From a virus, in the IMG/VR virus record IMGVR_UViG_3300038306_000001, positions 1-25,997 of that record: DNA of 25,997 bases, one strand, 5' to 3'. A model generated the notes under the pieces. It saw nothing but the letters and a program-made list of their open reading frames with translations, made no database searches and was not told the DNA's origin. Shown here one piece after another: positions 4,808 through 24,518 of the stretch. Position 1 is the first letter of the stretch, and each line of letters starts with the position of its first letter. Position numbers and translations under genes: made by a program.

Positions 4808-4955
4808 GTATTTAGATACAGTAATAGCACAGCAGCATCGTGCTATGGAACAATCTGATAACAGTATTGCTATGTATAGAGCACAGGGTGCAATATATCA
4901 ATTACGTAGATTACAATTACTACGAGATGAGGTTTTAAAACATGGGTCTTCTTAG
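4737..4955 (+). CDS. Small conserved protein overlapping the portal gene end
   Basis: A 72-residue protein of unknown function. The ATG at 4737 (MSKEQLSSLKGL) is preferred. A GTG six bases upstream would add two residues. The body (QQWEQFSKYLDTVIAQQHRA to LRRLQLLRDEVL) is amphipathic helix rich in Gln, Leu and Arg with no membrane segment, and could form a small helical bundle or coiled coil. It overlaps the 3' end of the portal gene by 71 bases in another frame and the next gene by 14 bases, which suggests translational coupling. Small proteins of this pattern occur just after portal genes in marine podovirus-like phages, so a portal- or head-associated role is a reasonable guess only. Confidence 0.65.
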   Translation: MSKEQLSSLKGLVNNHQQWEQFSKYLDTVIAQQHRAMEQSDNSIAMYRAQGAIYQLRRLQLLRDEVLKHGSS

Positions 4956-7900: not shown

Positions 7901-9519
7901 GGATTGCTAATGTACTTGGTGTACCTGAAGAGCAGGTAATTGCGTCTGTTAATGCAAACGTACAAAGTGGTGCTGTAGAAGTTTCACTTAGACCACGAGC
8001 ACGTCCTGTTGCAGAAGAACCTGAAATAGATAGTGCAATATCTCCACAATTAATATCTGGACCAAAGCAATCTGAATTAGATGGTGGTAAAGCAACTATA
8101 CCAACTGAGGCAGCAATGGATGCAAGTAATTATTTAACACAAAGACTTGCTTCAAGCCAAGGGGGAGACAGTTTTACAGGCGGTGATTATGATGTAGCAA
8201 GTAATGACCCTAATTTTGTATCAGATGCAGACGAAAAGTATCGCAAGGATTACCCAGAAATTCGTAAGGCATTTTATGGTGATGGGTCGGCTACACCACA
8301 GGTAGAACTAACACAACAACCTGCACCTGTTACTGATGCATATGTAGGTAGTTTAGATGCAGCTAGTCAATATAGACAACAGCCTACAACAACACAACCT
8401 GTTGAATCTATAGTAAATGCACCGCCTAGAAAAACAGATGTAGTAACTACGGATATGCAACTAGCCCCTGTACCACCTAGTTTTTCTGCTGTGCCTGAGT
8501 ATATGGATACAGACACTGGCACACCTTCTTATGGTCCTGTACCTGCTGACCCACGTATATCACGAAGATTTACTGGTGCTGATCCATTTGAACGACAAGA
8601 TACAGCAAATACATTAGCTGCATTTGGTCGTGGTACTGCACCACAAAAAGTTGTACCAGCTCCAGAAGGCTCGAAAGAAAACACTTCATTACTAGATAAA
8701 GCATTAAGACTATTAGATAAAGATGCTCAAACCAGAGTACTAAAGCAAGATATTGATGCCACAATTGCAAATGCAAATACAGTAATGAGTGATATTGATC
8801 GCAGACGTGCTGAAGATGCTGAAGATGCATCTAATGTACCTGAACCTCAAACAGATGCGTCTGCACTACAAACAGGTCCAGCAGTAAGAGGAAGAAACTC
8901 ATTTGGTCGGCCCCCACTTAGTATACCTGCAACAGCACCAACTGTTAAGCCTGTTAGTGAGGTAACTACAGATAGAGGTTACGTACCTACTAATGAAGCT
9001 AAACGTGCTGCTAAAGTAGATTATAACGACTATGCTGATCCTCGTGGTCGTGAGCAACTACCAAGTGTAGAACAAAAGTTGAGTAGTTTACGCCCTAAAG
9101 AAGAAACTTTTGGTGAGGCATTTGCTCGTAATAGAAAAGAAAATAAAAAAACATTTACCTATAAAGGTAAAAAATATACAACAGAAACAGCAGAAGAAAA
9201 AGCACCTAAAGAAAAAGCAGCTAAACCTAAAAGGGATACAGGCTCAAAAAGTAATAGGTTAGATCAATCTAATCCCAATACAGAAATAAACTTTAATGCT
9301 AATCTCGCTGAATGGGAAAAAGATATGGCTAGAAGTAATCCTGCATTAGCCCAACACTTTATTGCCACTGCTAATAGGCGACAAAACGATATAGAAAAAA
9401 CAGGGAAAGACCCAGAAGATAAAATATCTGCAAAGAAAACAGATGAGTCTGGTGGTCTTGGTGGCTGGATTAAAAAACAATTCGGCAAAAAGAAGGGTGG
9501 ACTAGCAACCCGATACTAA
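4942..9519 (+). CDS. Very large multidomain phage protein with 'IEEMQSD' polyvalent-type domain
   Basis: A 1525-residue protein with no single assigned function. Domain 1 (about 165-530) carries HLGGKQNIAHTRSSIR (182-197), YLLIEEMQSDL (216-226), then LLANITYAKQNNITKIVIP (404-422) and EYYEGVFKTIYKDAVKK. This succession resembles the 'HW..PNv.aH.R...fIEE.QSD' region of large polyvalent phage proteins. Domain 2 (about 558-633) has GRDVYETPEGEMVSEKS, WINIPSIHEG and EPTSVHKNKEEAEQAA. Domain 3 (about 660-725) has GVRDDVPAMVSEGEFVFP and LMQMRQEAKMGLKRM, a module recurring in marine podovirus virion-region proteins. A short hydrophobic stretch is at 916-936. The C-terminal ~450 residues are Pro/Thr/Ala-rich and low in complexity. 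Gly-Gly motifs recur (EGGVVG, DGGL, DGGFV, KKGGLATRY at the end). Position between portal and scaffold suggests a virion-internal or ejected protein; this is inference. Confidence 0.8.
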   Translation: MGLLSSGIKAARTATRSIPDITNYTKPKKKINPLVKPREQIFESPDLIETPTDYFGDPVEPDLEIIGKLYSPVYSAIEEMPIGKQGTKGENISAYLNKRAPNVEKAELESFGLELDPNRRYTKEEVLSLAKEKGTTDYTIEKHKYTEYEDDQRQGITDKEVDYVELTVQGKQEYAGSEDYTHLGGKQNIAHTRSSIRSELPEGGPLAQKISDRPRYLLIEEMQSDLVKNRNNPELKEENWYISREYDMYVPTAFDDFADNMDIDYNFYIDRNIIRTIQKHYYDMYSPDRLEGLDELKKVREDDSFRKGLIKKLKEEHNIDAQGKDIDTVSLDAIRKSSDTSRGEGDWNSGGEYQIEPDQQLENEAKDLFRQIENTVGSIYGKEATQADVKKLPIATRTEYVKKLLLANITYAKQNNITKIVIPNYKEIAKQRLDNFQMTISSLQETDPLVIKYNKAVKEGTVNELAQEYYEGVFKTIYKDAVKKAINQLNNETNNALKTKTKELTYPDLTEPNRVRKSNALEIDITNFEYDPKTDAFRFKEGGVVGTKTNKKTQAGRDVYETPEGEMVSEKSTTFKYKGQWINIPSIHEGHRYDDDTLILMLEAGLIEPTSVHKNKEEAEQAARKRSDSLKFNQGGTPMLEQQMEIFEDGGLRDEGGEVDEVSGNEVPIGGTKEGVRDDVPAMVSEGEFVFPEDVTRYIGLDKLMQMRQEAKMGLKRMDAMGQMGNGDEATMPDDMPFSMADLIVVAGDTGEELEMADGGFVRRSTTARRTEQQPTYAQPTDQDAQQPVFKTTRRLLPEREAPEPINLDFSGIMGESKISFKEYRNEEGKSVLMPFIGGSPVFPIPDGYTLYTAEDSSANTNEVASKVNEIAQAQEKDTYEVPDFLKPKPPEAKNWASMSTDKLIDELGSVTGTSRLITKGAMMLMGPVGLAGNLMMRHQDKNIVAAIDAALARGGLSAEYKTTLTAAKEELTKSGMLGFLDPIIDGIANVLGVPEEQVIASVNANVQSGAVEVSLRPRARPVAEEPEIDSAISPQLISGPKQSELDGGKATIPTEAAMDASNYLTQRLASSQGGDSFTGGDYDVASNDPNFVSDADEKYRKDYPEIRKAFYGDGSATPQVELTQQPAPVTDAYVGSLDAASQYRQQPTTTQPVESIVNAPPRKTDVVTTDMQLAPVPPSFSAVPEYMDTDTGTPSYGPVPADPRISRRFTGADPFERQDTANTLAAFGRGTAPQKVVPAPEGSKENTSLLDKALRLLDKDAQTRVLKQDIDATIANANTVMSDIDRRRAEDAEDASNVPEPQTDASALQTGPAVRGRNSFGRPPLSIPATAPTVKPVSEVTTDRGYVPTNEAKRAAKVDYNDYADPRGREQLPSVEQKLSSLRPKEETFGEAFARNRKENKKTFTYKGKKYTTETAEEKAPKEKAAKPKRDTGSKSNRLDQSNPNTEINFNANLAEWEKDMARSNPALAQHFIATANRRQNDIEKTGKDPEDKISAKKTDESGGLGGWIKKQFGKKKGGLATRY

Positions 9520-11791: not shown

Positions 11792-11821
11792 TAAGTGGGC
11801 TGCTTAATTGTGGCCCACTTA
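11792..11821 (+). terminator. Hairpin after the capsid gene, possible leaky terminator
   Basis: TAAGTGGGC (11792-11800) and GCCCACTTA (11813-11821) form a perfect 9-bp stem with a 12-base loop, 12 bases after the capsid stop. The downstream sequence TCTATAAAAGG has only a poor T-run, so efficient intrinsic termination is doubtful. A partial terminator or an RNA 3' end stabiliser or processing site for abundant capsid mRNA is plausible. Confidence 0.45.
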
Positions 11822-11839
11822 TCTATAAAAGGTTTAAAC

Positions 11840-12277
11840 ATGGGAATTACAACAGCGGTTTGTAACACATTTAAACAAGAACTGCTTGGTGGTACACATG
11901 ATTTGGACACCGATACAATAAAGGTTGCATTAATTAAAGTATCTCCAACAGGTACATATAATGCAGGTACAACTAACTATTCAGACGTTACAGGAAATTC
12001 CGACGAAGCTGTAGGAGTAGGGTACACAGCAACAGGTAATACCCTTGCTAATCCCTCTATCACTTTAAGTGGTTCTACTGCCATAGTCGATTATGACAAT
12101 ACAACATGGTCATCTGTAACTGTTTCTGCTGATGGGTGTATCATATATAACTCATCCAAATCTAATAGGGCTATCGCTGTAATAGCTTTTGGTAGTACTA
12201 AAAAATCTATCAATGGGGATTTTACAATACAGTTTCCCACAGCAGACGCATCTAACGCCATAATACGTATTGCATAA
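11840..12277 (+). CDS. Conserved small phage protein, probable virion component
   Basis: A 145-residue protein starting MGITTAVCNTFKQELLGGTH. The ATG at 11840 is chosen because AAAAGG lies seven bases upstream. A longer reading from 11795 would start inside the capsid-downstream hairpin. The sequence DTIKVALIKVSPTGTYNAGT, then YSDVTGNSDEAVG and a beta-rich C-terminus (GDFTIQFPTADASNAIIRIA) match a family very common just after the capsid gene in marine phages. It is beta-rich with no cysteine pairs, signal peptide or membrane segment. A head decoration or tail-related structural role is likely from position, but is not shown by any motif. Confidence 0.75.
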   Translation: MGITTAVCNTFKQELLGGTHDLDTDTIKVALIKVSPTGTYNAGTTNYSDVTGNSDEAVGVGYTATGNTLANPSITLSGSTAIVDYDNTTWSSVTVSADGCIIYNSSKSNRAIAVIAFGSTKKSINGDFTIQFPTADASNAIIRIA

Positions 12278-12289
12278 GGAGTAAACAAA

Positions 12290-12727
12290 ATGGCATCGTT
12301 TAATAAAGTAAATGACTTCGTTAAGAACGCAGTTCATAATATGGACCTAGAGTCCGATCAGTTTGTAGTTGCACTGTCTAATACAGCACCTGCATCTGAG
12401 TCACCTAACCCTGCAACAGATGGTAATGGTACATTAAGTAATATTACACAGGTAAGTTATAGTAATTTATCTTCCCGTAGTATTACAACTACTTCATCTG
12501 CACAGGCAAGCGGCACATATAAGTTAGTTCTTTCCGACATCACACTGACATCGACGGGTGGATCAACTGGCCCGTTCCGTTATATTTATATTTATGATGA
12601 TACGGTAACAGCACCTGCTGATCCTATTGTTGGTTACTATGATTATGGTTCATCTCTTACACTAAACGATGGCGATAGTTTCACTGTAGACTTTAATGCT
12701 ACTAATGGTGTAATCCAACTTACATAG
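12290..12727 (+). CDS. Conserved small phage protein of unknown function
   Basis: A 145-residue protein with a short helical start (MASFNKVNDFVKNAVHNMDL) followed by beta-rich sequence. DQFVVALSNTAPASES echoes the 'IKVALI' strand of the preceding gene product, and it ends GDSFTVDFNATNGVIQLT, close in style to the neighbour's GDFTIQFPTADASNAIIRIA. The two neighbours may therefore be distant paralogues of one beta fold. Its ribosome site is TAAGGAG just after the previous stop. It is probably structural (decoration or tail-associated). The paralogy is based on eye alignment of both ends only. Confidence 0.7.
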   Translation: MASFNKVNDFVKNAVHNMDLESDQFVVALSNTAPASESPNPATDGNGTLSNITQVSYSNLSSRSITTTSSAQASGTYKLVLSDITLTSTGGSTGPFRYIYIYDDTVTAPADPIVGYYDYGSSLTLNDGDSFTVDFNATNGVIQLT

Positions 12728-12737
12728 GATTTAACTG

Positions 12738-13112
12738 ATGGTCACTCTTGTAAATAGAGCAAAAATGGGAACTAGCACTACTGGTACTGGCACAATAACA
12801 TTGGGCAGTGCTGAGTCTGGCTATCAAAGTTTTGCTTCTGCAGGGGTGACTGACGGTACTACTATAAGATATACGATTGAAGATTCTACAGCTTTTGAGA
12901 TAGGAACTGGTGTATATACTGCATCAGGCACAACATTAACTAGGGTGGTTACAGAAAGCTCTAACTCCAATAATGCTATTAACTTATCTGGTAACGCAAA
13001 GGTTTTTGTAACCGCTACTGCAGATGATATTATAGATAGACTTATTGATGGTGGTGCAGCAGCTTCTACCTACGACACTACTCTGGGTGATATTGATGGG
13101 GGTTCTGCCTAA
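12738..13112 (+). CDS. Small fibre-region protein with phage tail-protein N-terminal module
   Basis: A 124-residue protein beginning MVTLVNRAKMGTSTTGTGTI, then LGSAESGYQSFASAGVTDGT, IRYTIED and TASGTTLTRVVTESSNS. This arrangement is the small beta module often placed at the N-terminus of, or just before, phage tail or fibre proteins. Here it is a free-standing gene. It ends in a flexible Gly/Ala-rich tail (GGAAASTYDTTLGDIDGGSA). Its stop codon overlaps the next start (TAATG at 13110-13114), so translation is coupled to the first adhesin. An attachment or collar role for the adhesins is a contextual guess. Confidence 0.7.
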   Translation: MVTLVNRAKMGTSTTGTGTITLGSAESGYQSFASAGVTDGTTIRYTIEDSTAFEIGTGVYTASGTTLTRVVTESSNSNNAINLSGNAKVFVTATADDIIDRLIDGGAAASTYDTTLGDIDGGSA

Positions 13113-14818
13113 TGGCAAATAAAATACAAATACGTAGAGACACTGCCTCTAACTGGACTAGCAGTAACCCCACACTTTCTCAGGGTGAGCAAGGTTATGA
13201 AACTGATACAGGCAAGTTAAAAATTGGTGATGGCTCTACTGCATGGACTAGCTTAGGTTATTCTTTTGAAAGTAGTGGACTTTCTAATATTGTTGAAGAC
13301 ACTACTCCACAACTTGGCGGTGATCTTGATGTAAACTCTAAGGCCATAAACTTTGGTGATAGCAACGGCACTACTACAAATATGCTTACATTTGGTGATG
13401 GAAATGATTTGAAAATTTATCACCATGCGACTGCAGGTACATACATAACTGAAGAAGGCACTGGAAACTTAAACTTTAGGGCGGGTGACTTGCGCCTAAT
13501 GAATGATGCGGGATCAACAACCCTTCAGTCCCTCCTTAGTGGCATACGGATAAGCAATAGCTACACTTTACCTACTTCAGATGGCACATCAGGTCAGGTA
13601 ATGACCACAGATGGTTCAGGGGCAGTTACTTTTGCGACTGCTAGTGGAGGTGGCGCTGATCTTTATGCTGCGGAAACAACAGGTTCTACTGATCCCACAG
13701 CAAGCGGAACAAGGTCGATAGCTATTGGTTCAGGTGCAGATGCAAATGGAACAAGTTCAATTGCTATTGGTAGTCTTTCAGATTGCTCTACTACAGAAAG
13801 TTATCAAATCGCCATTGGGCATAATGCTACTACTACTTATGGTCATATAGCTATAGGTTATAATACTACTGCTACCGCTTCATGGGCTACAGCCGTTGGT
13901 TACGATGCTTCTGCGGGATACCAAGGTAGTGCTTTTGGTATTCAGGCTGAAAGCACTTCAAATTTTGCAACAGCTTTAGGGCATTCATCAAGAGCAGCAG
14001 GGACATACAGTACAGCTTTGCCGTATAGCCGTACATCGGGTAGTCACAGCTTGGCAGCGGCTATATCGACTAACTCATCGTCTTACGGTGCTACTGGTGC
14101 TAATAGCGTGGCGATTGGGTATCAAGCCAAAGCGACAAATACCTATTCTACGTCGATTGGTTCATTGAATAACGTGACGGCCTACGGCGCTTTTGGTGCG
14201 GGTGATGCCAACACTGTTAGCGGTGACTATGGGGTTGCGATTGGTAGGGGGAACACATCAGGCGCAACTGTATCATCTCGACCCAATGTTGCATTAGGGT
14301 ACACAAACATAGCAACAGGTGGGGTGGCCCTTGCTGTAGGTGGCAACTCAGACACACAGGGTATTTGGGGTAAGATGTCCCATGCTGGTGGTAGATTTTC
14401 CGTAAATGGTGATGCACAAAACGGTCGTTTTGTCTTCCGTTCAGACACTACAGATGCAACTGCTGAAGCCATGACAACAAACAATAATACTGCATCTACT
14501 AACAACCAAGTAGTCTTGCCCAACAACTCAGTTTATGGCTTTACAGGTACAGTTATTGCTCGTGAAAACTCAGCGCAAACAAACGACTTTGCTGTATGGG
14601 AAATCAAAGGTGGTGCAGTCAGAGCAGCAACAGCGGCAACGACAGCCCTTGGCTCGTACAACATCAACAAAATTAGTGAAAGCACGGGCGCTGCAAACTG
14701 GAGTATTGCTCTTTCAGCAGACACAACAAATGGTGCGGTGGCAATCACAGTAACAGGTGAGGCATCACACTCCATTAGGTGGGTGGCAACCGTGAACACT
14801 ACGGAGGTAACGTACTAA
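13112..14818 (+). CDS. Adhesin A: tail fibre-like protein with YadA-head-like repeats
   Basis: A 568-residue predicted host-contact protein. The N-terminal module (1-50; IQIRRDTASNWTSSNP, then GEQGYETDTGKLKIGDGST) is a widespread phage tail-fibre N-terminus resembling the tropism-determinant N-domain. The region from 95 to 131 (GDGNDLKIYHHATAGTYITE) is a fibre module common in marine phages. A linker at 147-186 contains SYTLPTSDGTSGQVMTTDGS and GGGADLY. Residues 200-410 hold many imperfect 14-16-residue SIAIGxxAxA repeats like the beta-roll head of trimeric YadA adhesins, including SSYGATGANSVAIG (323-336). The C-terminal domain (430-568) contains SDTTDATAEAMTT, LPNNSVYGFTGTVIARE and SIRWVATVNTTEVTY, and recurs in the next two gene products. 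Trimeric assembly on the virion is expected from the family. Both junctions use TAATG overlaps. Confidence 0.82.
   Translation: MANKIQIRRDTASNWTSSNPTLSQGEQGYETDTGKLKIGDGSTAWTSLGYSFESSGLSNIVEDTTPQLGGDLDVNSKAINFGDSNGTTTNMLTFGDGNDLKIYHHATAGTYITEEGTGNLNFRAGDLRLMNDAGSTTLQSLLSGIRISNSYTLPTSDGTSGQVMTTDGSGAVTFATASGGGADLYAAETTGSTDPTASGTRSIAIGSGADANGTSSIAIGSLSDCSTTESYQIAIGHNATTTYGHIAIGYNTTATASWATAVGYDASAGYQGSAFGIQAESTSNFATALGHSSRAAGTYSTALPYSRTSGSHSLAAAISTNSSSYGATGANSVAIGYQAKATNTYSTSIGSLNNVTAYGAFGAGDANTVSGDYGVAIGRGNTSGATVSSRPNVALGYTNIATGGVALAVGGNSDTQGIWGKMSHAGGRFSVNGDAQNGRFVFRSDTTDATAEAMTTNNNTASTNNQVVLPNNSVYGFTGTVIARENSAQTNDFAVWEIKGGAVRAATAATTALGSYNINKISESTGAANWSIALSADTTNGAVAITVTGEASHSIRWVATVNTTEVTY
14402..14815 (+). 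repeat. Adhesin C-terminal domain, copy 1
   Basis: First of three homologous ~138-codon units ending the tandem adhesin genes. Markers are NGDAQ, SDTTDATAEAM, LPNNSVYGFTGTV and SIRWVATVNTTEVTY. The encoded proteins are clearly related while the DNA has diverged at many third positions. Confidence 0.75.
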
Positions 14819-16590
14819 TGGGTTCAGTTAATTTAGATAACACAGGATCAGGTAGTGCAATTACACTATCGTCGGACGGCACTAGCCTTCTTTTAGATGG
14901 CACAGCAATCGGTGGTGGTGGCTCAAGTTTTACAATGATTGTAGAAAATTACAGTAATGGTACTGCACCAAGTGTAACAGGAAATGATGCTGTAGGTATC
15001 GGTGATAATGTTACTGTTTCTGCAAATGATAGTTACGCAATTGGTCATTATGCAACTTGCGCAGGAGCAATGTCAATTGCACTTGGTCTGCAAGCTAACG
15101 TAACGAGTGGAGCATCTCAAGCAGTCGCTCTAGGTGATAATGCGACCGTCAATGCAGGAACATCAGGGGTCGCATTGGGGACGAGTTATGTCTCAGCGAC
15201 TGATGCTTTTGCAGCAGTCATTGCTAACAACACGTCATCCTACGGCGCAACTGGTGCTAATAGTATTGCTATTGGGCAGCTTTCAAAAGCGACTGCGACA
15301 AATAGCATTGCAATTGGCGACACTGCAACAAGCACAACAGCAAATCAAATTGCTTTAGGCGGCACAACAGACACCGTAAGGATCAGCGGTACTTACACCT
15401 TACCAACGGCTGACGGCAGTGCCAATCAGGTGCTTACGACAAATGGTTCAGGTACTGTTACGTTTGCAGATGCTGGTGGTGGTGGTAGTGACCCTGATCT
15501 TTATCGTGACAATGCTTCCTCTGCCACTACTCCTGTCGCAAGTGGTACAAATGCTGTGGCTATGGGAGATACAGCCGTAGCCTCTGGTGATAATGCTTTC
15601 GCATTGGGGAATGATACTGACGCAACTGGTCTTAATTCTTTAGCTCTTGGAAAAGGGGCGCAAGCGGTTTCTACCAGATGTATAGCGATTGGGTTAAATT
15701 CCTCAGCCTCGGCAGACAGGTCAATCACGATTGGTAATAATGGCAATGTCGCCACTGCAACGTATGCGACAAGCATAGGCAGTGGGTCAAATGGTAGTGG
15801 TTCTACGGCGGCTGGCAGCGGATCAGTTGCTCTTTCTAACGCACGGGCGGGGGGTGCAGACAGCCTTGCGGCAGTAATATCTAATAACACAAGTTCTTAT
15901 GGCGCTACTGGCTCTTATAGTATGGCAGGTGGTTATCTTAATAAAGCTACTGCAACTGATACCTTATGTTGGGGCGGTGATAGTAATCTAGTTACCAGTG
16001 GGCAAGCTGCTGTCGTAGGCGGCTGGATGAACCAAGCAGAAGGGGGCTATTCCTTTATAGGAGGCGGTCGCAATAATCGTGCGTTAGCTACTTATTCAAG
16101 AGCAGGTGGACATGATGCTGATACCAATGATAATCATGGTAAAGACGTATGGGCCAGTGGTGATTTTTCTAGCAGAGGCGATGCACAAACAGCCAAGCGT
16201 GTTTTGCGGTCTGACACCACAGATGCTACCGCTGAAGCACTAACAACCGATAAAAGTACGGCAGGGACAACAAACCAAGTCATCCTGCCCAACAACTCTG
16301 CTTACAGCTTTTCAGGTACAATTATTGCCCGTGAAAGCGCAGCGGCTGGGTCAGACTATGCTTCATGGGAAATCAAGGGTGCATTGCTGCGTGATGCTAA
16401 TGCTGCATCGACTGTGTTGGGCAATGGCATTCAGAATAAATTATACGCTACATCAGGTGCATCAGCATGGGCAATTGCTTTGTCGGCAGACACTACAAAT
16501 GGCGGCTTAAAGATTGAGGTCACTGGCGCAGCAAGCACAAACATTAGGTGGGTTGCCACAGTCAATACAAGCGAGGTTACATACGCATAA
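14818..16590 (+). CDS. Adhesin B: double YadA-head-like repeat protein
   Basis: A 590-residue paralogue of adhesin A. The ATG at 14818 overlaps the previous stop, with GGAGG at 14803-14807. A longer GTG reading from 14779 lacks a ribosome site. It has a different N-terminus (MGSVNLDNTGSGSAITLSSD, then LLLDGTAIGGGG), shared with adhesin C. YadA-like block 1 spans 55-185 (NNTSSYGATGANSIAIG at 137-153). The linker SGTYTLPTADGSANQVLTTN to GGGGSDPDLYRDN (190-232) matches the adhesin A linker. YadA-like block 2 spans 240-400, with a second NNTSSYGATG at 356-365. The region 400-440 carries GGWMNQAEGG and IGGGRNNRA repeats. The shared C-terminal domain occupies 453-590. It therefore looks like a fusion of two adhesin units. 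The DNA has more GCG and GGC codons than the flanking genes. Host-range binding is the likely role; the receptor is unknown. Confidence 0.82.
   Translation: MGSVNLDNTGSGSAITLSSDGTSLLLDGTAIGGGGSSFTMIVENYSNGTAPSVTGNDAVGIGDNVTVSANDSYAIGHYATCAGAMSIALGLQANVTSGASQAVALGDNATVNAGTSGVALGTSYVSATDAFAAVIANNTSSYGATGANSIAIGQLSKATATNSIAIGDTATSTTANQIALGGTTDTVRISGTYTLPTADGSANQVLTTNGSGTVTFADAGGGGSDPDLYRDNASSATTPVASGTNAVAMGDTAVASGDNAFALGNDTDATGLNSLALGKGAQAVSTRCIAIGLNSSASADRSITIGNNGNVATATYATSIGSGSNGSGSTAAGSGSVALSNARAGGADSLAAVISNNTSSYGATGSYSMAGGYLNKATATDTLCWGGDSNLVTSGQAAVVGGWMNQAEGGYSFIGGGRNNRALATYSRAGGHDADTNDNHGKDVWASGDFSSRGDAQTAKRVLRSDTTDATAEALTTDKSTAGTTNQVILPNNSAYSFSGTIIARESAAAGSDYASWEIKGALLRDANAASTVLGNGIQNKLYATSGASAWAIALSADTTNGGLKIEVTGAASTNIRWVATVNTSEVTYA
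16174..16587 (+). repeat. Adhesin C-terminal domain, copy 2
   Basis: Second ~138-codon copy. Markers are RGDAQ, SDTTDATAEALTT, LPNNSAYSFSGTIIARE and NIRWVATVNTSEVTYA. It is closer to copy 1 in the first half and to copy 3 at the very end (GAASTNIRWVAT is identical in copies 2 and 3). Confidence 0.75.
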
Positions 16591-17687
16591 TGGGTAAGGT
16601 TGAATTAGATCACACAGGCTCAGGCAGCGGTATTACACTTAGCTCTGATGGTACAAGTTTATTATTAGGTGGCACAGCAATCGGTGGTGGCGGGGGCGAC
16701 CCTGACCTTTACGCTGACAATTATGATGGCTCATCCACTCAGCCCTCTGCTAGTGGCACTAATAGTGTGGCGCTTGGCAAAAATGCTGTATCAGGTGGTG
16801 GATCAAGTATTGCATTTGGGGCATCCGCTTCTTCCGCAGGTAATCTGAGTTCTGCGATAGGTTTTAATGCGGCAGTTGGGAGTAGTGGAGCATATGCCGC
16901 AGCAATAGGTCAAGCGTATGCTAACGGACAAGACTCATTTGCAGCAGTCATAGGCAATAACACCTCAAGTTATGGCGCTGGTGGTTATAGTAATATTGCA
17001 ATTGGAGCAAACGCAAAAGCAACATCAGGCGGCAGCACTGTTGCTATTGGCGCTGGTACTGTTGCAAGTGGCAATTTCGCTGCTGCTGTTGGGGCAAATT
17101 GTGAAGCAACAAATGGTGGTTCTGCTTTTGGCCGTGCTAGTGATGCTACGGGTGGTTATTCTCTTGTTTTGGGCGCTAGTAATCTTGCTTCACAGTTTTA
17201 TTCTGTTGCTATTGGGAATAATGCTAAGTCTGAAATAAAAGGAAAACTTGCTTATGGCTCAGGACGATTTACAACAAACGGTGATGTTCAAGCTGGTACT
17301 TTTATATTGCGGATGGCTTCGACAAGTGGATCACCCGTTGTTTTAACATCAGATGGCAGCACCACTGCGGATACTCTTAACCAAATCATCCTACCCAACA
17401 ATAGCGCATATGCATTCCACGGCACCATTGTAGCCCGTCAAAAGGCGGGTGATGGTACAGCAAGTGCAGCATGGAAGGTAGAGGGCTTGATCCGCAGGGA
17501 AGGTTCTGCTGGTACAACAGTGCTAGTCAACAGTGCAACAACAGTCCTAGACAACACACCATCTTGGGGCATGGCTCTAAGTGCTGACACAACAAACGGT
17601 GGTCTAGCAATCACAGTAACTGGTGCAGCATCAACAAACATTCGCTGGGTCGCTACGATCCATACATCTGAAGTAACCTACGCCTAA
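16590..17687 (+). CDS. Adhesin C: short YadA-head-like repeat protein
   Basis: A 365-residue third paralogue. The ATG at 16590 overlaps the stop of adhesin B (TAATG); an in-frame upstream reading from 16548 would lie inside the conserved end of adhesin B. The N-terminus MGKVELDHTGSGSGITLSSD, then LLLGGTAIGGGGGDPDLYAD, fuses the adhesin B type leader directly to the linker end that occurs in the middle of B. Residues 55-212 hold YadA-head-like repeats (NSVALGKNAVSGG, then NNTSSYGAGGYSNIAIGANA at 123-142). The C-terminal domain at 230-365 is the shared type (LPNNSAYAFHGTIVARQ, ALSADTTNGGLAITVTGAAS). Being the shortest, it may represent the minimal adhesin unit. It is followed by a very good ribosome site (AAAAGGAG) for the next gene. 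Function as part of a multi-adhesin host-contact apparatus is inferred. Confidence 0.82.
   Translation: MGKVELDHTGSGSGITLSSDGTSLLLGGTAIGGGGGDPDLYADNYDGSSTQPSASGTNSVALGKNAVSGGGSSIAFGASASSAGNLSSAIGFNAAVGSSGAYAAAIGQAYANGQDSFAAVIGNNTSSYGAGGYSNIAIGANAKATSGGSTVAIGAGTVASGNFAAAVGANCEATNGGSAFGRASDATGGYSLVLGASNLASQFYSVAIGNNAKSEIKGKLAYGSGRFTTNGDVQAGTFILRMASTSGSPVVLTSDGSTTADTLNQIILPNNSAYAFHGTIVARQKAGDGTASAAWKVEGLIRREGSAGTTVLVNSATTVLDNTPSWGMALSADTTNGGLAITVTGAASTNIRWVATIHTSEVTYA
17277..17684 (+). repeat. Adhesin C-terminal domain, copy 3
   Basis: Third copy. Markers are NGDVQ, LPNNSAYAFHGTI, MALSADTTNGGLAITVTGAA and NIRWVATIHTSEVTYA. It is the most divergent in its first half, where SDTTDAT is replaced by unrelated Ser/Thr-rich sequence. 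Confidence 0.75.
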
Positions 17688-17700
17688 AAGGAGAAATCAA

Positions 17701-18006
17701 ATGGCTATACAACACAACATCGCAGAAGGTGCAAGTCAGTACGGCATTGCATTTAATAACGCTTACTACCGCATCGTGACAGCGGCTGTGTCACGTCAAC
17801 GTGGGTCAGACCCAAAGTTCACCGTGATGATTGACCTGTCAGCTTATGCTACAGCAACACCCACAGATGATACACGTGAGGTAGACTTTAAGCGTTACAA
17901 CGCAAACCTCACAGACATCGAAGCTGCATCAGGCTCAACATTCTTAGATAAGTGCTATGCTTGGGTTATGGCTCAGTCTGACATGGACGGATCAACGGCG
18001 GTATAA
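17701..18006 (+). CDS. Small conserved phage protein, unknown function
   Basis: A 101-residue protein starting MAIQHNIAEGASQYGIAFNN, with PKFTVMIDLSAYATATPTDD and VDFKRYNANLTDIEAASGST. It has no membrane segment, signal or catalytic motif. AAAAGGAG (17686-17693) precedes the ATG by seven bases and overlaps the stop of adhesin C. Small proteins of this pattern recur in marine phage tail regions. Position between adhesins and further tail genes suggests a structural or fibre-assembly role, not supported by any specific motif. Confidence 0.65.
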   Translation: MAIQHNIAEGASQYGIAFNNAYYRIVTAAVSRQRGSDPKFTVMIDLSAYATATPTDDTREVDFKRYNANLTDIEAASGSTFLDKCYAWVMAQSDMDGSTAV

Positions 18007-18009
18007 ACA

Positions 18010-18120
18010 ATGAGCCTAACGATAAACCATCAGACGAATGACATCAGTGCTACCAGTGGCAGTGTGACCCTTGATGGAGCTGCTGTTGGCGGTGGGTCGT
18101 GGAACCAACGGAATAAATAA
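18010..18120 (+). CDS. 36-residue ORF resembling an adhesin N-terminus
   Basis: The reading MSLTINHQTNDISATSGSVT, LDGAAVGGGS, WNQRNK starts three bases after the previous stop. DISATSGSVTLDGAAVGGGS mirrors the adhesin B/C leader (ITLSSDGTSLLLDGTAIGGG), so this is either a very small stand-alone fibre-associated peptide or a leftover N-terminus of a lost fourth adhesin. After its stop the same frame continues for 12 codons (MKQTVHSAQIFD), and an adjacent frame reads NETDSTFSADF before a stop, which could be a remnant of a body. No strong ribosome site is seen, so it would be translated by coupling. Confidence 0.45.
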   Translation: MSLTINHQTNDISATSGSVTLDGAAVGGGSWNQRNK

Positions 18121-18176
18121 ATGAAACAGACAGTACATTCAGCGCAGATTTTTGATTAGAGGACGAGGAAAACTAA

Positions 18177-19799
18177 ATGCTAGGCTTTTCCCCATTAGCA
18201 TCTGCTCCACTTGCTGATGATGGGGCCATTGGTGTTGTATATCAAATTACAGCAGCCAGTGGTAGCTTTGCACTTACAGGTCAAGCATCTACTCTAACAT
18301 CTGTACGCAGTGTAGATGTAACTCACGGTAGCTTTACTCTTACAGGTATTACTCTAACTAACCTGTCTGTACAAGATAACTTCTTGGCTAACACAGGTAG
18401 CTTTACTCTTACTGGTCAAGACGTAGAGTTTATTGAGAGTAAGTCTCTAGCCGTAGATGCAGGTACATTTACTACTACAGGACAAGACTCTGTACTAAAT
18501 ATCAATACAGTAGAGCAAGTCACTACAGGTAGCTTCACTCTTACTGGTCAAGACTCTATACTAAACGTTGATAGTGTTCTATCTGCAGATGCAGGTACAT
18601 TTACCGCTACAGCACAGGCTGCGGATGATCTTATCAGAGGTCAAATACTCACAGCCGATACAGGTTCGTTTAGTCTCACAGGTCAAGACAGCTTCTTATA
18701 CGGCACTGCTCAGGCTGGCAGCTTTACCTTAACAGGACAAGATGCCAGTATATCTGCGCAGCTTAATGTCACAGCAGACGCAGGTACATTTACTCTAACT
18801 GGCATAGATGCTGATCCTAGAAAAGTACAGGCTCTTGTTGCAGACACAGGTACGTTTGCACTTACGGGTCAAGATGCTAATGCTGACATTGTTGAGATTG
18901 TCGAAAGCAATAGCTACTCTTTAACAGGACAAGATGTAAATCTAACTAAGTCTGTAGTAGAGAGTACAGTAAGTGAAACGTTTGCCCTAACAGGCCAAGA
19001 CTCTGATCTAAATATTAACAGAGTTATATCTGCATCTGCAGATACATTTAGCCTAACAGGACAGGCTCTTGTAATAGGCGTGACAGGTGCAGTACAGGTA
19101 GGTGATTTTACTTACACAGGTCAAGCTGCAAATGTTAATGCGCAACTAAACGTAGCAGCAGATCAAGGTAGCTTTACAACTACAGGTCAAAGTGCTGATC
19201 TAATAAGAGCTATTGGTGCTGATACAGGCAGCTTTACATTATCTGGTCAAGACACAGACTTTATTAAGTCGCTTAACTTGTACCCAGAAGCTGGTGTATT
19301 TACACTAGAAGGTCAAGAAATTGACAGAGGAATATCTGAACTAGCGCAAGTTGGTTCCTTTACCCTAACAGGACAAACTGCTACACTAGAGTATCTACCG
19401 GGCATTATACCTGCTACAGCTACCTTTAGTGTCAATGGACAGGATGCTGTATTTAATACAAGTAGACCTGTAAGTGAAGGTTCATTTACTTTAACGGGTC
19501 AGCCTTTAAGTATTAATACAACTGTACCTGTAACATTAAATGTCTTGACAAGTTCTGTCGGTACGGTTACAATAGTAGAGAACTCTACTGATTACAGCCA
19601 AGAAGATTACAGTAAACAAAGAGTAGTATATATTCTAGGGCAGGATACAGACTATAATGTTACTGTACAAAAAGAAAATAATGTTGTATTTTTACACACA
19701 TTAAGTTCAGTAAATACTGTGTACATACAAAAAGAAAATCGTACAGTACACATACTAGCAGAAGACGCACGTGCTAAAACAGTGTTCATAGCAGCATAG
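18177..19799 (+). CDS. Repeat protein with 20 GSFTLTGQ-type units
   Basis: A 540-residue protein. After a short leader (MLGFSPLASAPLADDGAIGV), residues 29-442 contain 20 copies of a motif with consensus G-S/T-F-T-L-T-G-Q-D/A, spaced 21 residues on average. The spacers include alternating patterns such as ADAGTFT and linker strands with 'Vxxx'. Near-perfect copies include GSFTLTGQD at several positions; degenerate ones are NSYSLTGQD, GVFTLEGQE and ATFSVNGQD. Each unit looks like two short strands with a turn, so a beta-solenoid or a string of small beta units is expected. The last ~100 residues are different (VVYILGQDTDYNVTVQKENN and related VYIQKENRTVHIL repeats). No Cys or catalytic pattern is present. 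Its neighbours are adhesins and tail adaptor genes, so a tail or fibre component is likely. The family name is not known to me. Confidence 0.75.
   Translation: MLGFSPLASAPLADDGAIGVVYQITAASGSFALTGQASTLTSVRSVDVTHGSFTLTGITLTNLSVQDNFLANTGSFTLTGQDVEFIESKSLAVDAGTFTTTGQDSVLNINTVEQVTTGSFTLTGQDSILNVDSVLSADAGTFTATAQAADDLIRGQILTADTGSFSLTGQDSFLYGTAQAGSFTLTGQDASISAQLNVTADAGTFTLTGIDADPRKVQALVADTGTFALTGQDANADIVEIVESNSYSLTGQDVNLTKSVVESTVSETFALTGQDSDLNINRVISASADTFSLTGQALVIGVTGAVQVGDFTYTGQAANVNAQLNVAADQGSFTTTGQSADLIRAIGADTGSFTLSGQDTDFIKSLNLYPEAGVFTLEGQEIDRGISELAQVGSFTLTGQTATLEYLPGIIPATATFSVNGQDAVFNTSRPVSEGSFTLTGQPLSINTTVPVTLNVLTSSVGTVTIVENSTDYSQEDYSKQRVVYILGQDTDYNVTVQKENNVVFLHTLSSVNTVYIQKENRTVHILAEDARAKTVFIAA
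18261..19502 (+). repeat. Twenty tandem in-frame coding repeats (GSFTLTGQ type)
   Basis: DNA units around GGTAGCTTTACTCTTACTGG recur at irregular intervals of about 55-80 bases, with high similarity between early copies (for example near 18397 and 18529). The repeats are coding and in frame throughout. Recombination between copies could change length without breaking the frame. Confidence 0.75.
19545..19573 (+). promoter_or_regulatory. Promoter-like site inside the repeat protein gene
   Basis: TTGACA (19545-19550) and TACAAT (19568-19573) are separated by 17 bases. It lies within coding sequence upstream of the tail adaptor genes. Chance matches occur in AT-rich coding DNA, so this is weak. 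Confidence 0.25.
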
Positions 19800-19809
19800 A
19801 GGAAACTAC

Positions 19810-20127
19810 ATGGCATATAAGTGGCCCGATAAAGATAAAGATGAAACAATAGATTACAGTGTAGATTGGTCTAGATTTTTAGGCACGGATACTATTGCTT
19901 CTGTTACATGGTATATTGATAATGCTTCTGATGTAAAGACACAAGTAGCAGATGCTGATACTGTTAATGGTTTGCAGTTTGTTACAGGAACAAATACAAA
20001 CACAGTATCTACGATACGATTATCTTTAGGAACTAATAACTTACGTTATAAAATAACGTGTGGTATAACTACAGCTAGTTCTCTTACATACGAGCGATCT
20101 ATATTTTTACGTATTAGGGAGAAATAA
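19810..20127 (+). CDS. Small fibre-tail adaptor-type protein
   Basis: A 105-residue beta-rich protein beginning MAYKWPDKDKDETIDYSVDW, followed by DTIASVTWYIDN and ending NLRYKITCGITTASSLTYER and IFLRIREK. The layout (KWPxKDPDExxDYxxDW, then strands and a final 'R...LRIR') matches small immunoglobulin-like proteins annotated in phages as fibre-tail adaptor proteins. It sits immediately upstream of the tail connector genes and is preceded by AGAGGA. The function is inferred from this resemblance and the neighbourhood. Confidence 0.65.
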   Translation: MAYKWPDKDKDETIDYSVDWSRFLGTDTIASVTWYIDNASDVKTQVADADTVNGLQFVTGTNTNTVSTIRLSLGTNNLRYKITCGITTASSLTYERSIFLRIREK

Positions 20128-20130
20128 AAT

Positions 20131-20820
20131 ATGGCATACGACTTCTTGGGTATAGTTAACGATGTTAACCGAAGGTTAAACGAAGTAGAATTAAACACAA
20201 CTAATTTTGCTACAGCTACGGGGTTTTATAGTTTTGCTAAAGAGGCTATTAACTCTTCTATTAGACATATACACCATGAAGAGTTTGAGTGGCCTTGGAA
20301 CCATGCAGAAGAAACAGAAGTTTTACTAGCAGGTGAAGTTAGGTATGGATTACCTACAGATTGTAAAACGGTAAACATGAATAGCTTTAGAATAAAAAGG
20401 GACACTACATTAAATGTAGATACTATTAAATTAAAATCAATGACATATGAAGAATATCTTGACAAACATGCGGATATAGAGTATAACTCAAGTACTGATA
20501 TAAGAGGTGTTCCTAGATATATAATCCGTGCACCTAGTAAAGAAATACTTGTATACCCCTCTCCAGATAAAGCATATGAAGTAGTATATGAATACTACAC
20601 GTTAGGTTTTAATCTAGAGCTACACAGCGATGTTCCTAGTATACCAGAGCAGCATAGACACGTTATTGTTGATGGCGCTATGTACTACGCATACCAGTTT
20701 AGGGGCGACAATCAATCATCACAACAGTCCTTTGTAAAGTTTCAACAAAGTATAAAACACTTACGTAGTATAAATATAAACCGTACAGACTACATAAGAG
20801 ATACACGAGTTCACTATTAA
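20131..20820 (+). CDS. Tail adaptor (tail tubular protein A / gp11-like)
   Basis: Predicted ring protein joining portal to the short tail. It is 229 residues long, close to the usual length of podovirus gp11-like or P22 gp4-like adaptors. The N-terminal helical region (FLGIVNDVNRRLNEVELNTT, then KEAINSSIRHIHHEEFEWPW at about 37-56) is typical: a helix pair followed by E-W-P-W/F. The middle is beta-rich (RYGLPTDCKTVNMNSFRIKR; PRYIIRAPSKEILVYPSPD) and the C-terminus is helical (HRHVIVDGAMYYAYQFRGDN), again as in the family. It starts three bases after the preceding stop and overlaps the next gene by one base (TAATG). Identification rests on length, motif pattern and linkage to the nozzle-like gene. 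Confidence 0.75.
   Translation: MAYDFLGIVNDVNRRLNEVELNTTNFATATGFYSFAKEAINSSIRHIHHEEFEWPWNHAEETEVLLAGEVRYGLPTDCKTVNMNSFRIKRDTTLNVDTIKLKSMTYEEYLDKHADIEYNSSTDIRGVPRYIIRAPSKEILVYPSPDKAYEVVYEYYTLGFNLELHSDVPSIPEQHRHVIVDGAMYYAYQFRGDNQSSQQSFVKFQQSIKHLRSININRTDYIRDTRVHY
20459..20487 (+). promoter_or_regulatory. Promoter-like site inside the tail adaptor gene
   Basis: TTGACA (20459-20464) and TATAAC (20482-20487), spacing 17, are the same two hexamers as in the capsid promoter, although here there is no extended -10. It is intragenic, so it may be chance. Confidence 0.25.
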
Positions 20821-22379
20821 TGGCAACCCAATGGCAAACATTTCCTATAGAGTTTAGAGGTGGGCTTATTTCTAATCTCAGTAAACTTCAGCAAGGTATA
20901 AATGCTGTTGGTTCTGCTACTATTTTGCAAAACTTTGAACCTAATACAGAGGGTGGTTACTCTAAAATACTTGGGTATCAGAAGTATTCTACAAATGCTT
21001 TAGCAGGTACAGGCCCAACGTTAGCCCTTAAGGTAATTAACTCTAGTAAAATTATTGCCGCTAGAAAAAACAGCAGTAATAAAACTGAATACTTTTTAAA
21101 CACTGGGGGAAGTAATGCGTGGACACCTTTTGCAAATAACTCAGGGGTAGCAGTAGGGGTAGGTGGTAAAGTAAGAAGTGCCACGTACAATTTTTCGGGA
21201 TATGATAATACTATATTTGTAGACGGGGCAAACTATCCAGCAATATACAGTACATCGGGAGATTCTTTTACATTTTTAACTTCAGCAAATTCTACAGCAA
21301 TATCAGGTGCAGATCACGTAGCTATATATAAGAATGCCGCTTTTTATGCTGTAAACAATGTGTTAGTATATTCAGCCCCAGAAACAGTAGATAATTTTGA
21401 GGCAGGTTTAGGTGGGGATAAACTTGTAGGCCAAAATATAACAGGTCTTATTGTTTTTAGGGATCAACTTATAATATTTACTAAAGATACTATTTCCGCT
21501 TTACGAGGTTCTAGTTCTGCAGACTATACCATATCTCCTATTACAACTAGAACAGGATGCATAGACGGTAATACGATACAAGAAGTTGGTGGTGACATTA
21601 TGTATCTTGCTCCTGATGGTTTACGTCTATTAAGTGCAACAGATCGTATAGGTGACTTTGCCTTAGACGTAGCCTCTAATAAAATACAAAAAGATGCTAG
21701 TACTTTATTAAACATAACATCTAATTTTTGCTCTGTCATTCTTCGTGAAAAAGCACAATATAGACTATTTTCGTATATTGAAAATGAAACAGATTCTGTG
21801 GCTAAAGGTTTAATAACAACAAAGTATGTATCACAAGGTGCAGGAGGCTTTTCTTGGGCAACTACACAGGGCATAAAGGCAACAGTAGCAGACAGTAGGT
21901 ATGTTAATAATATAGAAACTGTAGCATTTTCAAATGAAGATGGGTACGTTTATATAATGGATACAGGTTCTAACTTTGATGGGTCTAATATAGAAGCTAT
22001 ATATGAGTCTCCTTATATGCCTATAACAGACCCACAAACAAGAAAAACGTTTTACAAAATGACTTTGTATGCTCAACCTGCTGGAGCAATGTCACTAGAC
22101 TTTAACATTAAATACGATTTTGATGCGAAAGTCGAAGCAGGTACAGTACAGCCGCCAACACAGCAACTCGTAGGAACAGGTACATCTGTGTTTGTATATG
22201 GTGCATCTAATGCTATTTATGGTACAGCTAGTTATGGTGGTGAATTAGATAATATATATAACACAAATGTTATAGGGTCGGGTAAAACTGTAGCGTTACG
22301 TATTGTAGATAATACAACTAATCCAACATTTACTCTTGATACTGCTGTAATAGAGTACGCTCAGAATGACAGACAATAA
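20820..22379 (+). CDS. Tail nozzle / tail tubular protein B-like protein
   Basis: A 519-residue protein expected to form the tail nozzle below the adaptor ring (T7 gp12-like / P22 gp10-like role). It starts MATQWQTFPIEFRGGLISNL, then QNFEPNTEGGYSKILGYQKY (about 37-56), the conserved opening of this family. The body is beta-propeller-like: repeated hydrophobic strand pairs such as NTIFVDGANYPAIY, HVAIYKNAAFYAV, GLIVFRDQLIIFTKDTISAL and GDIMYLAPDGLRLL. The C-terminal part (YKMTLYAQPAGAMSLDFNIK and later strands) is also beta. Its start overlaps the adaptor stop (TAATG), so the two partners are translationally coupled. The role is inferred from family pattern and pairing with the adaptor. Confidence 0.78.
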   Translation: MATQWQTFPIEFRGGLISNLSKLQQGINAVGSATILQNFEPNTEGGYSKILGYQKYSTNALAGTGPTLALKVINSSKIIAARKNSSNKTEYFLNTGGSNAWTPFANNSGVAVGVGGKVRSATYNFSGYDNTIFVDGANYPAIYSTSGDSFTFLTSANSTAISGADHVAIYKNAAFYAVNNVLVYSAPETVDNFEAGLGGDKLVGQNITGLIVFRDQLIIFTKDTISALRGSSSADYTISPITTRTGCIDGNTIQEVGGDIMYLAPDGLRLLSATDRIGDFALDVASNKIQKDASTLLNITSNFCSVILREKAQYRLFSYIENETDSVAKGLITTKYVSQGAGGFSWATTQGIKATVADSRYVNNIETVAFSNEDGYVYIMDTGSNFDGSNIEAIYESPYMPITDPQTRKTFYKMTLYAQPAGAMSLDFNIKYDFDAKVEAGTVQPPTQQLVGTGTSVFVYGASNAIYGTASYGGELDNIYNTNVIGSGKTVALRIVDNTTNPTFTLDTAVIEYAQNDRQ

Positions 22380-22388
22380 GGAAAAACT

Positions 22389-24518
22389 ATGTCAAATAAC
22401 GGGTATATAAGACAGGACAATGATGATAACATTTCTAATGGTAATGTTATTAATGCTAATGATCTTGATAACGAGTTTAATGCCATTAAGACTGCCTTTA
22501 GTTCAGTAGATGGACACACCCACGACCCTACTGTAACGGGCGGTGGTGCGGCTATTGAAAAAATAGGACCGCAGCAAAACCTTGTTGTATCGGCAACTAG
22601 TGTACTACCAAAAACAACAAACACTTTAGATGTAGGTTCAAGTGGAGCACAGTTTAAAGATGCGTACTTTGACGGTATTCTAAAAGCTCACACTGTATAT
22701 GCAGGAGATAATGCTGGTTTAATACTAACAGATAATAACTTAGTTTCTAGTAACACTTTAACTATTAATGGGATTGTTAGTTCTGGTATTTTACTGCAAC
22801 AAAATACGGCAAACATTGGTGGCATAGTAAAAAAGAGTAGTACAAATGATATTGTTATTAAGTCTGGTACAACTACAGCAGCTACGTTTACAGCAGCAGA
22901 CGTAGATTTTTCAGGTAAGGTAGACATTACAGATGAAACAACCTTAGATGATAAGCTAACAGTAACAGGTGAAACCGCACTTAATGGTGGTCTTGTTATG
23001 GACACAGATAAGTTTACCGTGGCTGATACTACTGGTAACACAGCAATAGCTGGAACCTTAGATGTTACAGGAACTACCACACTAAGTAGACTAGAGCTAG
23101 ATGATTTTGTTTTAGATTCTACTACTTTGAGTTTAACTAGTGGCAATCTTACTTTGGATGCGGCAGGAGATATAAACTTAGATGCTGACGGTGGAGATGT
23201 AATACTCAAAGACGGTGGTACTGTTTTTGGATCATTTAATTCTAATATAGGTTCTAATAGGCAGCTTGTAATTAAAAGTGGATCAAGCCAAACTACAGCC
23301 GCCACATTCAATGATGCTAATGTAACATTCGCTAACAATGCTACAGTTAATGGTAACACAACATTAGGCAATGATGCTGCTGCTGATCAAGTAGTTCTCA
23401 ATTCAAAAGTAGCTTCTAACATTATTCCTGATAGTTCTTCTCGTACCATAGGCGATGGAAGTACTTCTTGGAATCATGGTTATTTTGGTGCGGTAACAAC
23501 TTCAGGTAATGTTATAGTAGGTGGTGACTTAACTGTATCGGGAACTATGACTACTATAGATACAGCAAATCTTTCTGTAGAAGATTCTTTAATAGAACTA
23601 GCAAGAGCTAATACATCTACAGATTCTTTAGATGTAGGTATCTTTGGTACATATTATGGCAATAGTGCTATAAGACGTGCTGGTTTATTTAGAGATGCTA
23701 GTGATAGTTCTAAGTGGAAACTATTTAATAATACTCTACAAGACCTAACTTCTTCCACAACAGTAGATACAGGTGCTACAGGGTACACTGTAAGTACACT
23801 TGTAGCAAACCTTGAAGGTAATGCTGACACAGCAGCTACTCTGGAGACAGCAAGAACTATTGCTGGTGTAAGTTTTGATGGTGGTGCAGATATAGACATT
23901 GGTTTAAATGGTTTATCTGACATAAACATAGCCTCAGTACCGTCTAATGGAGAGATTTTAAAGTATGATACTACTACATCTAAGTGGATAGTAGGTAGTA
24001 GTGCAAGTAGTTTGTCTAGCTTAACAGATGTAAATAGTTCTATGTCTCCTTCGGACGGACAGTTACTTCGATATGATAATGCGAACACTGAGTGGACTGC
24101 AGTTACTGCTGGTATCAGTGACATATCAGGCTTGCAAACAGCATTAAATGATAAAGAAACTGCAGATGCTGAAATATTAAAAGCAGATACAGACGATAAC
24201 ATTACTGCTGGTTATACAGCAACAGCAGATGATGATGGTACTAAATCAAGTGGTACGTATACTCCTTCTCCTGCAGGTGGTAACTTAAAACGTATTATTA
24301 ATGGCGGTGCTTTTACCTTAGCTGCACCTACAGCAACAGGTGATTATACTATGGTTATTCAAATGACAAATAATTCATCTGCTGGAACAGTTACATTATC
24401 AGGGTTTACTAAACTTGTAAACCAAGGATATTTAACCACCACAAACGGAGATGATTTCTTTATATATGTAACGAAAATAAATGGGTTTACTTCCTTGACG
24501 GTACAGGCACTACAATAA
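22389..24518 (+). CDS. Long tail fibre protein
   Basis: A 709-residue predicted receptor-binding or fibre protein. The N-terminal virion-attachment-like region has NVINANDLDNEFNAIKTAFS (19-38) and a GHTHDPT motif (42-48), followed by DVGSSGAQFKDAYFDG, a common marine fibre opening. Repeated TLDV/TLTV and 'GNxxTLxxxG' strand motifs suggest a trimeric beta-helical shaft through about 100-370. Residues 377-446 carry LTVSGTMTTIDTANLSVEDS then GLFRDASDSSKWKLF, a module often seen in marine phage fibres. The region 516-575 has two copies of a 'L.D.N...P..G.(I/L)L.YD' motif. The tip domain begins near 623 (TYTPSPAGGNLKRI to LTVQALQ). No intramolecular chaperone peptidase domain is seen. AAGGAAAA precedes the ATG; the stop overlaps the next start (TAATG). 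Confidence 0.8.
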   Translation: MSNNGYIRQDNDDNISNGNVINANDLDNEFNAIKTAFSSVDGHTHDPTVTGGGAAIEKIGPQQNLVVSATSVLPKTTNTLDVGSSGAQFKDAYFDGILKAHTVYAGDNAGLILTDNNLVSSNTLTINGIVSSGILLQQNTANIGGIVKKSSTNDIVIKSGTTTAATFTAADVDFSGKVDITDETTLDDKLTVTGETALNGGLVMDTDKFTVADTTGNTAIAGTLDVTGTTTLSRLELDDFVLDSTTLSLTSGNLTLDAAGDINLDADGGDVILKDGGTVFGSFNSNIGSNRQLVIKSGSSQTTAATFNDANVTFANNATVNGNTTLGNDAAADQVVLNSKVASNIIPDSSSRTIGDGSTSWNHGYFGAVTTSGNVIVGGDLTVSGTMTTIDTANLSVEDSLIELARANTSTDSLDVGIFGTYYGNSAIRRAGLFRDASDSSKWKLFNNTLQDLTSSTTVDTGATGYTVSTLVANLEGNADTAATLETARTIAGVSFDGGADIDIGLNGLSDINIASVPSNGEILKYDTTTSKWIVGSSASSLSSLTDVNSSMSPSDGQLLRYDNANTEWTAVTAGISDISGLQTALNDKETADAEILKADTDDNITAGYTATADDDGTKSSGTYTPSPAGGNLKRIINGGAFTLAAPTATGDYTMVIQMTNNSSAGTVTLSGFTKLVNQGYLTTTNGDDFFIYVTKINGFTSLTVQALQ

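Follow-up and report, generated by a model that had tools for sequence, protein, structure and literature searches.

Modular YadA-head adhesins of an uncultured marine podovirus: candidate tiles of a single serial fibre

Background

In phage T4 the long tail fibres join the C-terminal domain of gp9 coaxially, and gp9 has been named their socket protein (PMC3004832). Domain shuffling in phage receptor-binding proteins is ongoing and well documented (PMC10684548), and there is one earlier case of a pelagiphage tail fibre with a YadA domain (PMC3909814). Here we describe an adhesin cassette with three consecutive genes, A, B and C, in IMG/VR record IMGVR_UViG_3300038306_000001. The stretch analysed (25,997 bp, hereafter the window) is a fragment that spans only the packaging and structural region of an HMO-2011-type podovirus. 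The cassette probably encodes one composite serial side fibre of interchangeable tiles with matched ends. The initial annotation of this DNA had called adjacent head-repeat adhesins unusual in a phage, which holds in part only, given the pelagiphage fibre and the YadA-like heads that are present in many phage and giant-virus proteins.

Results and Discussion

A, B and C follow one another with an overlap of 1 nt between each pair (stop-start TAATG); B probably starts at the ATG at 14818 and not at the mechanically assigned 14779. Their parts are as follows.

13112..14818 (+): adhesin A (568 aa), the first tile, with a virion-anchor type N-terminus, a YadA-like head and the shared C-terminal domain
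13124..13240 (+): Mtd_N (PF18454) anchor module of A (Pfam E 3.1e-17)
13568..13666 (+): linker joint LPTSDG...GGGADLY in A, the linker being a mosaic joint
14078..14098 (+): SSYGATG joint in A, the mosaic switch to the second adhesin (AD2) of related locus L075
14402..14815 (+): C-terminal domain of A, whose last 106 aa (14498-14815) are an S1-class connector (putative S-leader socket)
14818..16590 (+): adhesin B (590 aa), an S-leader tile with a K-class connector
14818..14919 (+): S-class leader (putative plug) MGSVNLDNTGSGSAITLSSDGTSLLLDGTAIGGG of B
15235..15255 (+): SSYGATG joint, copy 1 in B
15400..15504 (+): linker joint LPTADG...GGGGSDPDLY in B
15892..15912 (+): SSYGATG joint, copy 2 in B, the left end of the B segment present in L075 AD2
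16171..16587 (+): C-terminal domain of B, whose last 106 aa (16270-16587) are a K-class connector
16590..17687 (+): adhesin C (365 aa), a K-leader tile with a terminal ("cap") connector
16590..16697 (+): K-class leader (putative plug) MGKVELDHTGSGSGITLSSDGTSLLLGGTAIGGGGG of C, with a predicted local distance difference test score (pLDDT) of about 50, low confidence, in the monomer model
16698..16712 (+): DPDLY linker joint in C, immediately behind the leader
16965..16985 (+): SSYGAGG joint in C
17274..17684 (+): C-terminal domain of C, with a fold like T4 gp9 172-286, whose last 106 aa are of the terminal connector class

As the initial annotation had proposed, A, B and C share one C-terminal domain of about 138 aa, which is homologous in all three (A/B 40% identity, E 4e-111; A/C 35%, 2e-68; B/C 41%, 2e-75), the outcome of a check set beforehand that favours shuffling. 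The same annotation was borne out on the beta-roll head repeats (YadA_head PF05658 in A, B and C by Pfam scan), on the tropism-type N-terminus (Mtd_N solely at the start of A), on a leader limited to B and C, on a linker that lies mid-protein in A (ADLY) and B (SDPDLY) and right behind the leader in C, and on the SSYGA signature that occurs four times, at residues A323, B140, B359 and C126. The head of C also matches BpaC in sequence (E 2e-21). Nevertheless, the three proteins are not trimeric autotransporter adhesins (TAAs) and only their heads are TAA-like: a Pfam scan of A, B and C detected no YadA membrane-anchor family, and the C-terminus in the model of C is a gp9-like beta-sandwich. A diversity-generating retroelement, as in Mtd systems, was considered and is disfavoured: A has the Mtd-type N-terminal domain, and no reverse transcriptase match (RVT_1) was found within the 26-kb window, itself a fragment.

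To place these genes among relatives, viral contigs were scanned with B, the 101-aa gene downstream of C (17701..18006), the capsid protein and three adhesin alignments, which yielded 268 loci with the C-terminal domain, or 162 clusters after merging. One adhesin is present in 98 clusters, two in 46, three in 16, four in one and five in one, counts that are lower bounds because of contig ends. The array-first gene has a variable virion anchor and later genes start with a short leader of few classes, namely K (MGKIELDH), S (MGSVNLDN or MGSINIDN, with a minor E form) and A (MGAINIKH); such a leader was found in none of the 50 first genes of multi-gene arrays and in 72 of the 83 later genes.

From the last 106 aa of an adhesin, here called the connector, one can tell which class of element follows (K, S, A or the 17701-like gene): prediction by the nearest neighbour with less than 90% identity and from another locus was right in 215 of 216 cases. 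Shuffled labels gave a mean of 44% (maximum 53%) and the 100 aa just upstream of the connector gave 51%. On the other side of the leader the prediction falls to chance, both from the following 100 aa (31/74) and from the connector of the leader's own gene (33/74; shuffled mean 41%), and the leader is therefore tied to the preceding gene rather than to its own. The match extends to subclasses, with S1 connectors followed by an SVN leader in 9 of 12 cases and S2 connectors by SIN or EIN in 14 of 14 and by SVN in 0 of 14 (Fisher p 7e-5). Among close relatives connector and next leader switch jointly: the window reads anchor-S-K-terminal, L075 anchor-S-A-terminal and L071 ...K-S-terminal.

Of 15 internal tiles, not one pairs a plug with a socket of its own class, where 4.5 would be expected (p 0.004), and no array repeats a connector class or a leader class. 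A coarse letter typing of leader subtypes gave a marginal result for non-repetition (p 0.044), the tile-level test being the stronger one. The absence of self-matching tiles is what avoiding endless self-polymerisation needs, and recombination loss between repeated units gives the same effect. Because no connector class is repeated within an array, simple recent tandem duplication does not describe array growth.

Module shuffling is real, and related phages have no fixed gene set, as the initial annotation had anticipated: arrays hold one to five genes in variable order, and relatives whose backbone is 93-97% identical carry different heads, with mosaics visible in the DNA. In L075 the capsid protein is 97% identical to that of the window and long backbone stretches have 93-94% DNA identity, yet its three adhesins are other ones. 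The second of these, AD2, consists of a leader, the first half of the head of window A (89.6% DNA identity) and, joined to it at SSYGA(T/S)G, the latter half of window B (78.5%), while the first C-terminal domain and second leader of L075 match the C-terminal domain of A and the leader of B (87.7%). L071 is 96.7% identical to the window over 18176-24141, and its adhesins are again different. From 229 non-redundant adhesin genes we obtained 98 candidate mosaic junctions, of which 51 lie at most 10 residues from one of the joints (SSYGA 25, connector start NQxxLPNN 15, DLY linker 11), against 16 expected. A stricter null that allows 25 residues to either side raises the expectation to 22 (p < 1e-4) and is intended to absorb the tendency of alignment ends to be drawn to conserved motifs. 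Site-specific recombination at SSYGATG was considered and rejected: codons differ among the four copies, and since conservation is at the protein level a DNA-site mechanism is unlikely.

In the structure predicted for C (mean pLDDT 88) the leader (residues 1-50) is disordered, the head is a beta-roll, and the C-terminal part is a beta-sandwich that is itself predicted well. By fold, the head (residues 49-235) matches CbpF (Z 20.9), BpaC (20.1) and YadA (19.0). For residues 236-365 of this predicted monomer the best match is T4 gp9 172-286 (Z 10.5, 2.7 A over 107 residues, 8% identity), followed by a tail/baseplate-interface chain of Klebsiella phage KP1 (Z 8.7) and two tailspike C-termini (8.6 and 8.0).

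Read as one serial fibre, the cassette would work as follows. Adhesin A would be fixed to the virion by its own anchor, here Mtd_N; the adhesins are probably trimeric and their YadA-like heads would offer a binding surface. The gp9-like C-terminal domain would be a socket with a class-specific surface, and the leader at the N-terminus of the protein encoded next its matching plug, so that gene order would set the order of assembly: A -(S)- B -(K)- C -(terminal)- gene 17701..18006. Through recombination at SSYGATG, GGGxDPDLY and NQxxLPNN, tiles could be gained, lost, moved to another place in the order or fitted with new heads, and a single, defined assembly order would be kept because classes match between neighbours only and no tile matches itself.

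That heads are hypervariable among near-identical phages, like the host-recognition genes of metaviromic islands (PMC3909814), would also suit A, B and C being separate receptor-binding fibres, amplified for a wider host range; the leader would then be a tag that all use for attachment to the virion, and the match between connector and leader an effect of linked neighbouring DNA; connector and next leader are indeed adjacent in the DNA, usually with the 1-nt overlap. We consider such parallel adhesins unlikely, because linkage would be expected before and behind the leader alike, whereas the 100 aa that follow it predict its class at chance, because mosaic junctions lie within genes at the joints and not at the gene boundary, and because the domain matched by fold is a socket and leader classes never recur in a locus. 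Pure hitchhiking of neighbouring DNA was rejected on the same flank controls, which do not fit it. Of the initial proposal that amplification had given several host-binding proteins, the modules and their shuffling stand, and the independence of the adhesins probably does not, as plug/socket pairing points to segments of one fibre.

A branched complex in the style of CBA120 or RaK2, in which the first protein is a hub with several docking sites and the others bind it by their N-termini, would account for one anchor-bearing protein with several leader-bearing partners, as in the TSP4 organiser scheme (PMC8825819; PMC10253068). It is improbable here, since the match is pairwise along gene order, including the second-to-third and third-to-fourth genes of L116, for which a hub has no need, and since the same socket domain is present in single-gene arrays. 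Pfam and PHROG scans of A, B and C detected no XD2 or XD3 (T4 gp10-like) docking domains, the fold search covering the model of C only. We give very little credence to co-translational assembly or translational coupling, in which the C-terminal domain would serve as a trimerisation or chaperone module, tuned to where the next ribosome starts, without contact in the finished fibre, for although TAATG overlaps at 69 of 84 adhesin-leader junctions suit it, connector and leader classes both differ as protein, the leaders have a common protein consensus, and the terminal class precedes the 17701-like gene across a gap of 10-14 nt.

Several points weigh against the serial fibre itself. The connector classes form few clades and need a minimum of 4 changes on the tree, so that the 215 of 216 rests on about five ancient connector lineages, and the rule has one exception, the third gene of L027. 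The similarity to gp9 could partly reflect a beta-sandwich common in phages, as the tailspike C-termini among the matches indicate. Moreover, the cassette of the window lies between capsid and tail genes, and the fibre could be attached to the head. These few connector lineages have nevertheless stayed matched, despite heavy recombination around them. For the relatives as a whole we lean towards a coded self-ordering chain, in which a few orthogonal pairs of plug and socket (K, S1, S2/E, A, terminal and probably T) would serve as an alphabet with which uncultured marine phages compose multi-segment fibres of interchangeable YadA-head tiles whose genetic order is their physical order.

Regarding the genomic setting, the major capsid protein of the window is 86% identical to that of Roseobacter phage CRP-1 and its TerL 91% to that of CRP-345, and its capsid, terminase and portal have homologues in HMO-2011 and CRP phages in the same order. 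In the portal-scaffold interval, a 1525-aa open reading frame (ORF; 4942-9519) is far longer than the corresponding ORFs of cultured relatives and far more diverged. The tail genes come 0.1-1 kb after the capsid gene in HMO-2011, CRP-1, CRP-2, CRP-9 and ctYwJ313, and about 2.3 kb after it in CRP-345, where the interval holds small genes and no adhesin; in the window 8.35 kb separate capsid and tail genes, A, B and C included. The G+C content is 0.47-0.485 at 14-18 kb (14001-18000) versus 0.33-0.45 elsewhere in the window, which suggests a distinct origin of the cassette and would fit an acquired or separately evolving region.

A second cassette site was found in L077, L085, L095, L107, L111, L115, L117 and L137, where the first adhesin lies behind the tail genes. 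In L085, L095 and L111 this adhesin opens with the N-terminus that the tail fibres of cultured phages have (46-52% to CRP-1 gp43, 41-49% to HMO-2011 gp43), and the adhesins of these three are for this reason placed on the tail; those of the window may be carried there as well. Capsid decoration, considered because the cassette follows the major capsid protein gene, is weakened by these relatives but could still apply to the window. A genome collection gave a single match, L366, a contig from the Rhodobacteraceae bin Water_Bin34 that carries a K leader and a 17701-like gene; it is probably a phage contig and hints at the host family.

The order of the cassette is stable among relatives: 11795-like and 12290-like genes, 12738-like gene, adhesins, 17701-like gene. 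The adjoining proteins encoded at 11795-12277 and 12290-12727, usually upstream of adhesin arrays, both match phrog_644 (unknown function). Besides the adhesins, the cassette includes the following genes and orphan leader.

12738..13112 (+): 124-aa gene for a domain that is free-standing here and in many relatives forms the N-terminal anchor of the first adhesin (by tblastn and ORF boundaries in relatives)
17701..18006 (+): 101-aa conserved gene, directly behind the last adhesin in 136 arrays; a possible adaptor or cap
18010..18120 (+): orphan 36-aa T-type leader, then a stop and no payload; the same leader heads unrelated proteins in relatives

The 101-aa protein reaches 96% identity in relatives and has a confident predicted model (pLDDT 91); there was no PHROG, no PDB sequence match and no structural match above Z 3.5 for it, the best matches among viral models being weak and mostly unnamed. 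Its gene has at least 405 relatives in marine viral contigs and zero matches in 50,697 catalogued phage records, in which the C-terminal domain of the adhesins has three weak matches. A tblastn search of cultured phages with full-length C gave no match, for which low-complexity filtering, which hides the heads, is partly to blame.

The T leader (MSLTINHQTNDISATSGSVTIDGAAVGGGG) heads very different payloads downstream of the 17701-like gene in many relatives, which suggests that this slot may be a further, fourth plug-in position, empty or decayed in the window. Its homology to the K, S and A leaders is weakly supported (best E 0.0085, for a T leader, among 419 candidates). At L075:10310-12175 and L129:6455-8272 a 46-aa T-leader protein precedes a large one that resembles the protein of window 24518-25408 and may be an alternative fibre tip. 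Further downstream, a 540-aa protein (18177-19799) contains about 20 repeats of a GSFTLTGQ-type unit and varies in length among relatives.

If the serial fibre holds, it would explain how a phage changes its host-binding fibre by swap, gain or loss of segments without failure of assembly, it would supply a set of orthogonal protein connectors of natural origin, and one could read from sequence in which physical order the segments of a fibre lie. It would also be part of the host-recognition machinery of the uncultured majority, because it is near-absent from the catalogued phage records and common in marine viral contigs.

Comparison with known systems

The closest likeness is to T4 gp9 and the long tail fibre (gp34-gp37), in which a trimeric beta-sandwich, matched in fold by the C-terminal domain of C, receives the next fibre coaxially and gene products are joined end to end. 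T4 has a single, invariant gp9 and an invariant fibre, whereas here each segment would have its own socket, which belongs to one class among several, and segments differ in number and order from array to array. The branched tailspikes of CBA120, G7C and RaK2 similarly combine one virion-anchor protein with partners that have dedicated docking modules and glycine-rich flexible joins, but theirs are N-terminal XD domains on a hub and their partners are depolymerases, while in the cassette a C-terminus would meet the next N-terminus and the heads are YadA-like. An order set by docking domains, as proposed for the coded adhesin chain, is known from modular enzyme assembly lines.

The heads of TAAs (YadA, BpaC, CbpF, UspA1) are matched by residues 49-235 of C in both sequence and fold. 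Unlike TAAs, the phage proteins have no membrane anchor, neck or secretion part and carry a phage anchor and a gp9-like domain instead, and the SSYGATG layer of their heads doubles as a recombination joint. Finally, in comparison with other mosaic phage tail fibres and tailspikes, exchange here takes place at few recurring motifs, and the swapped unit keeps the match between connector and leader across the gene boundary.

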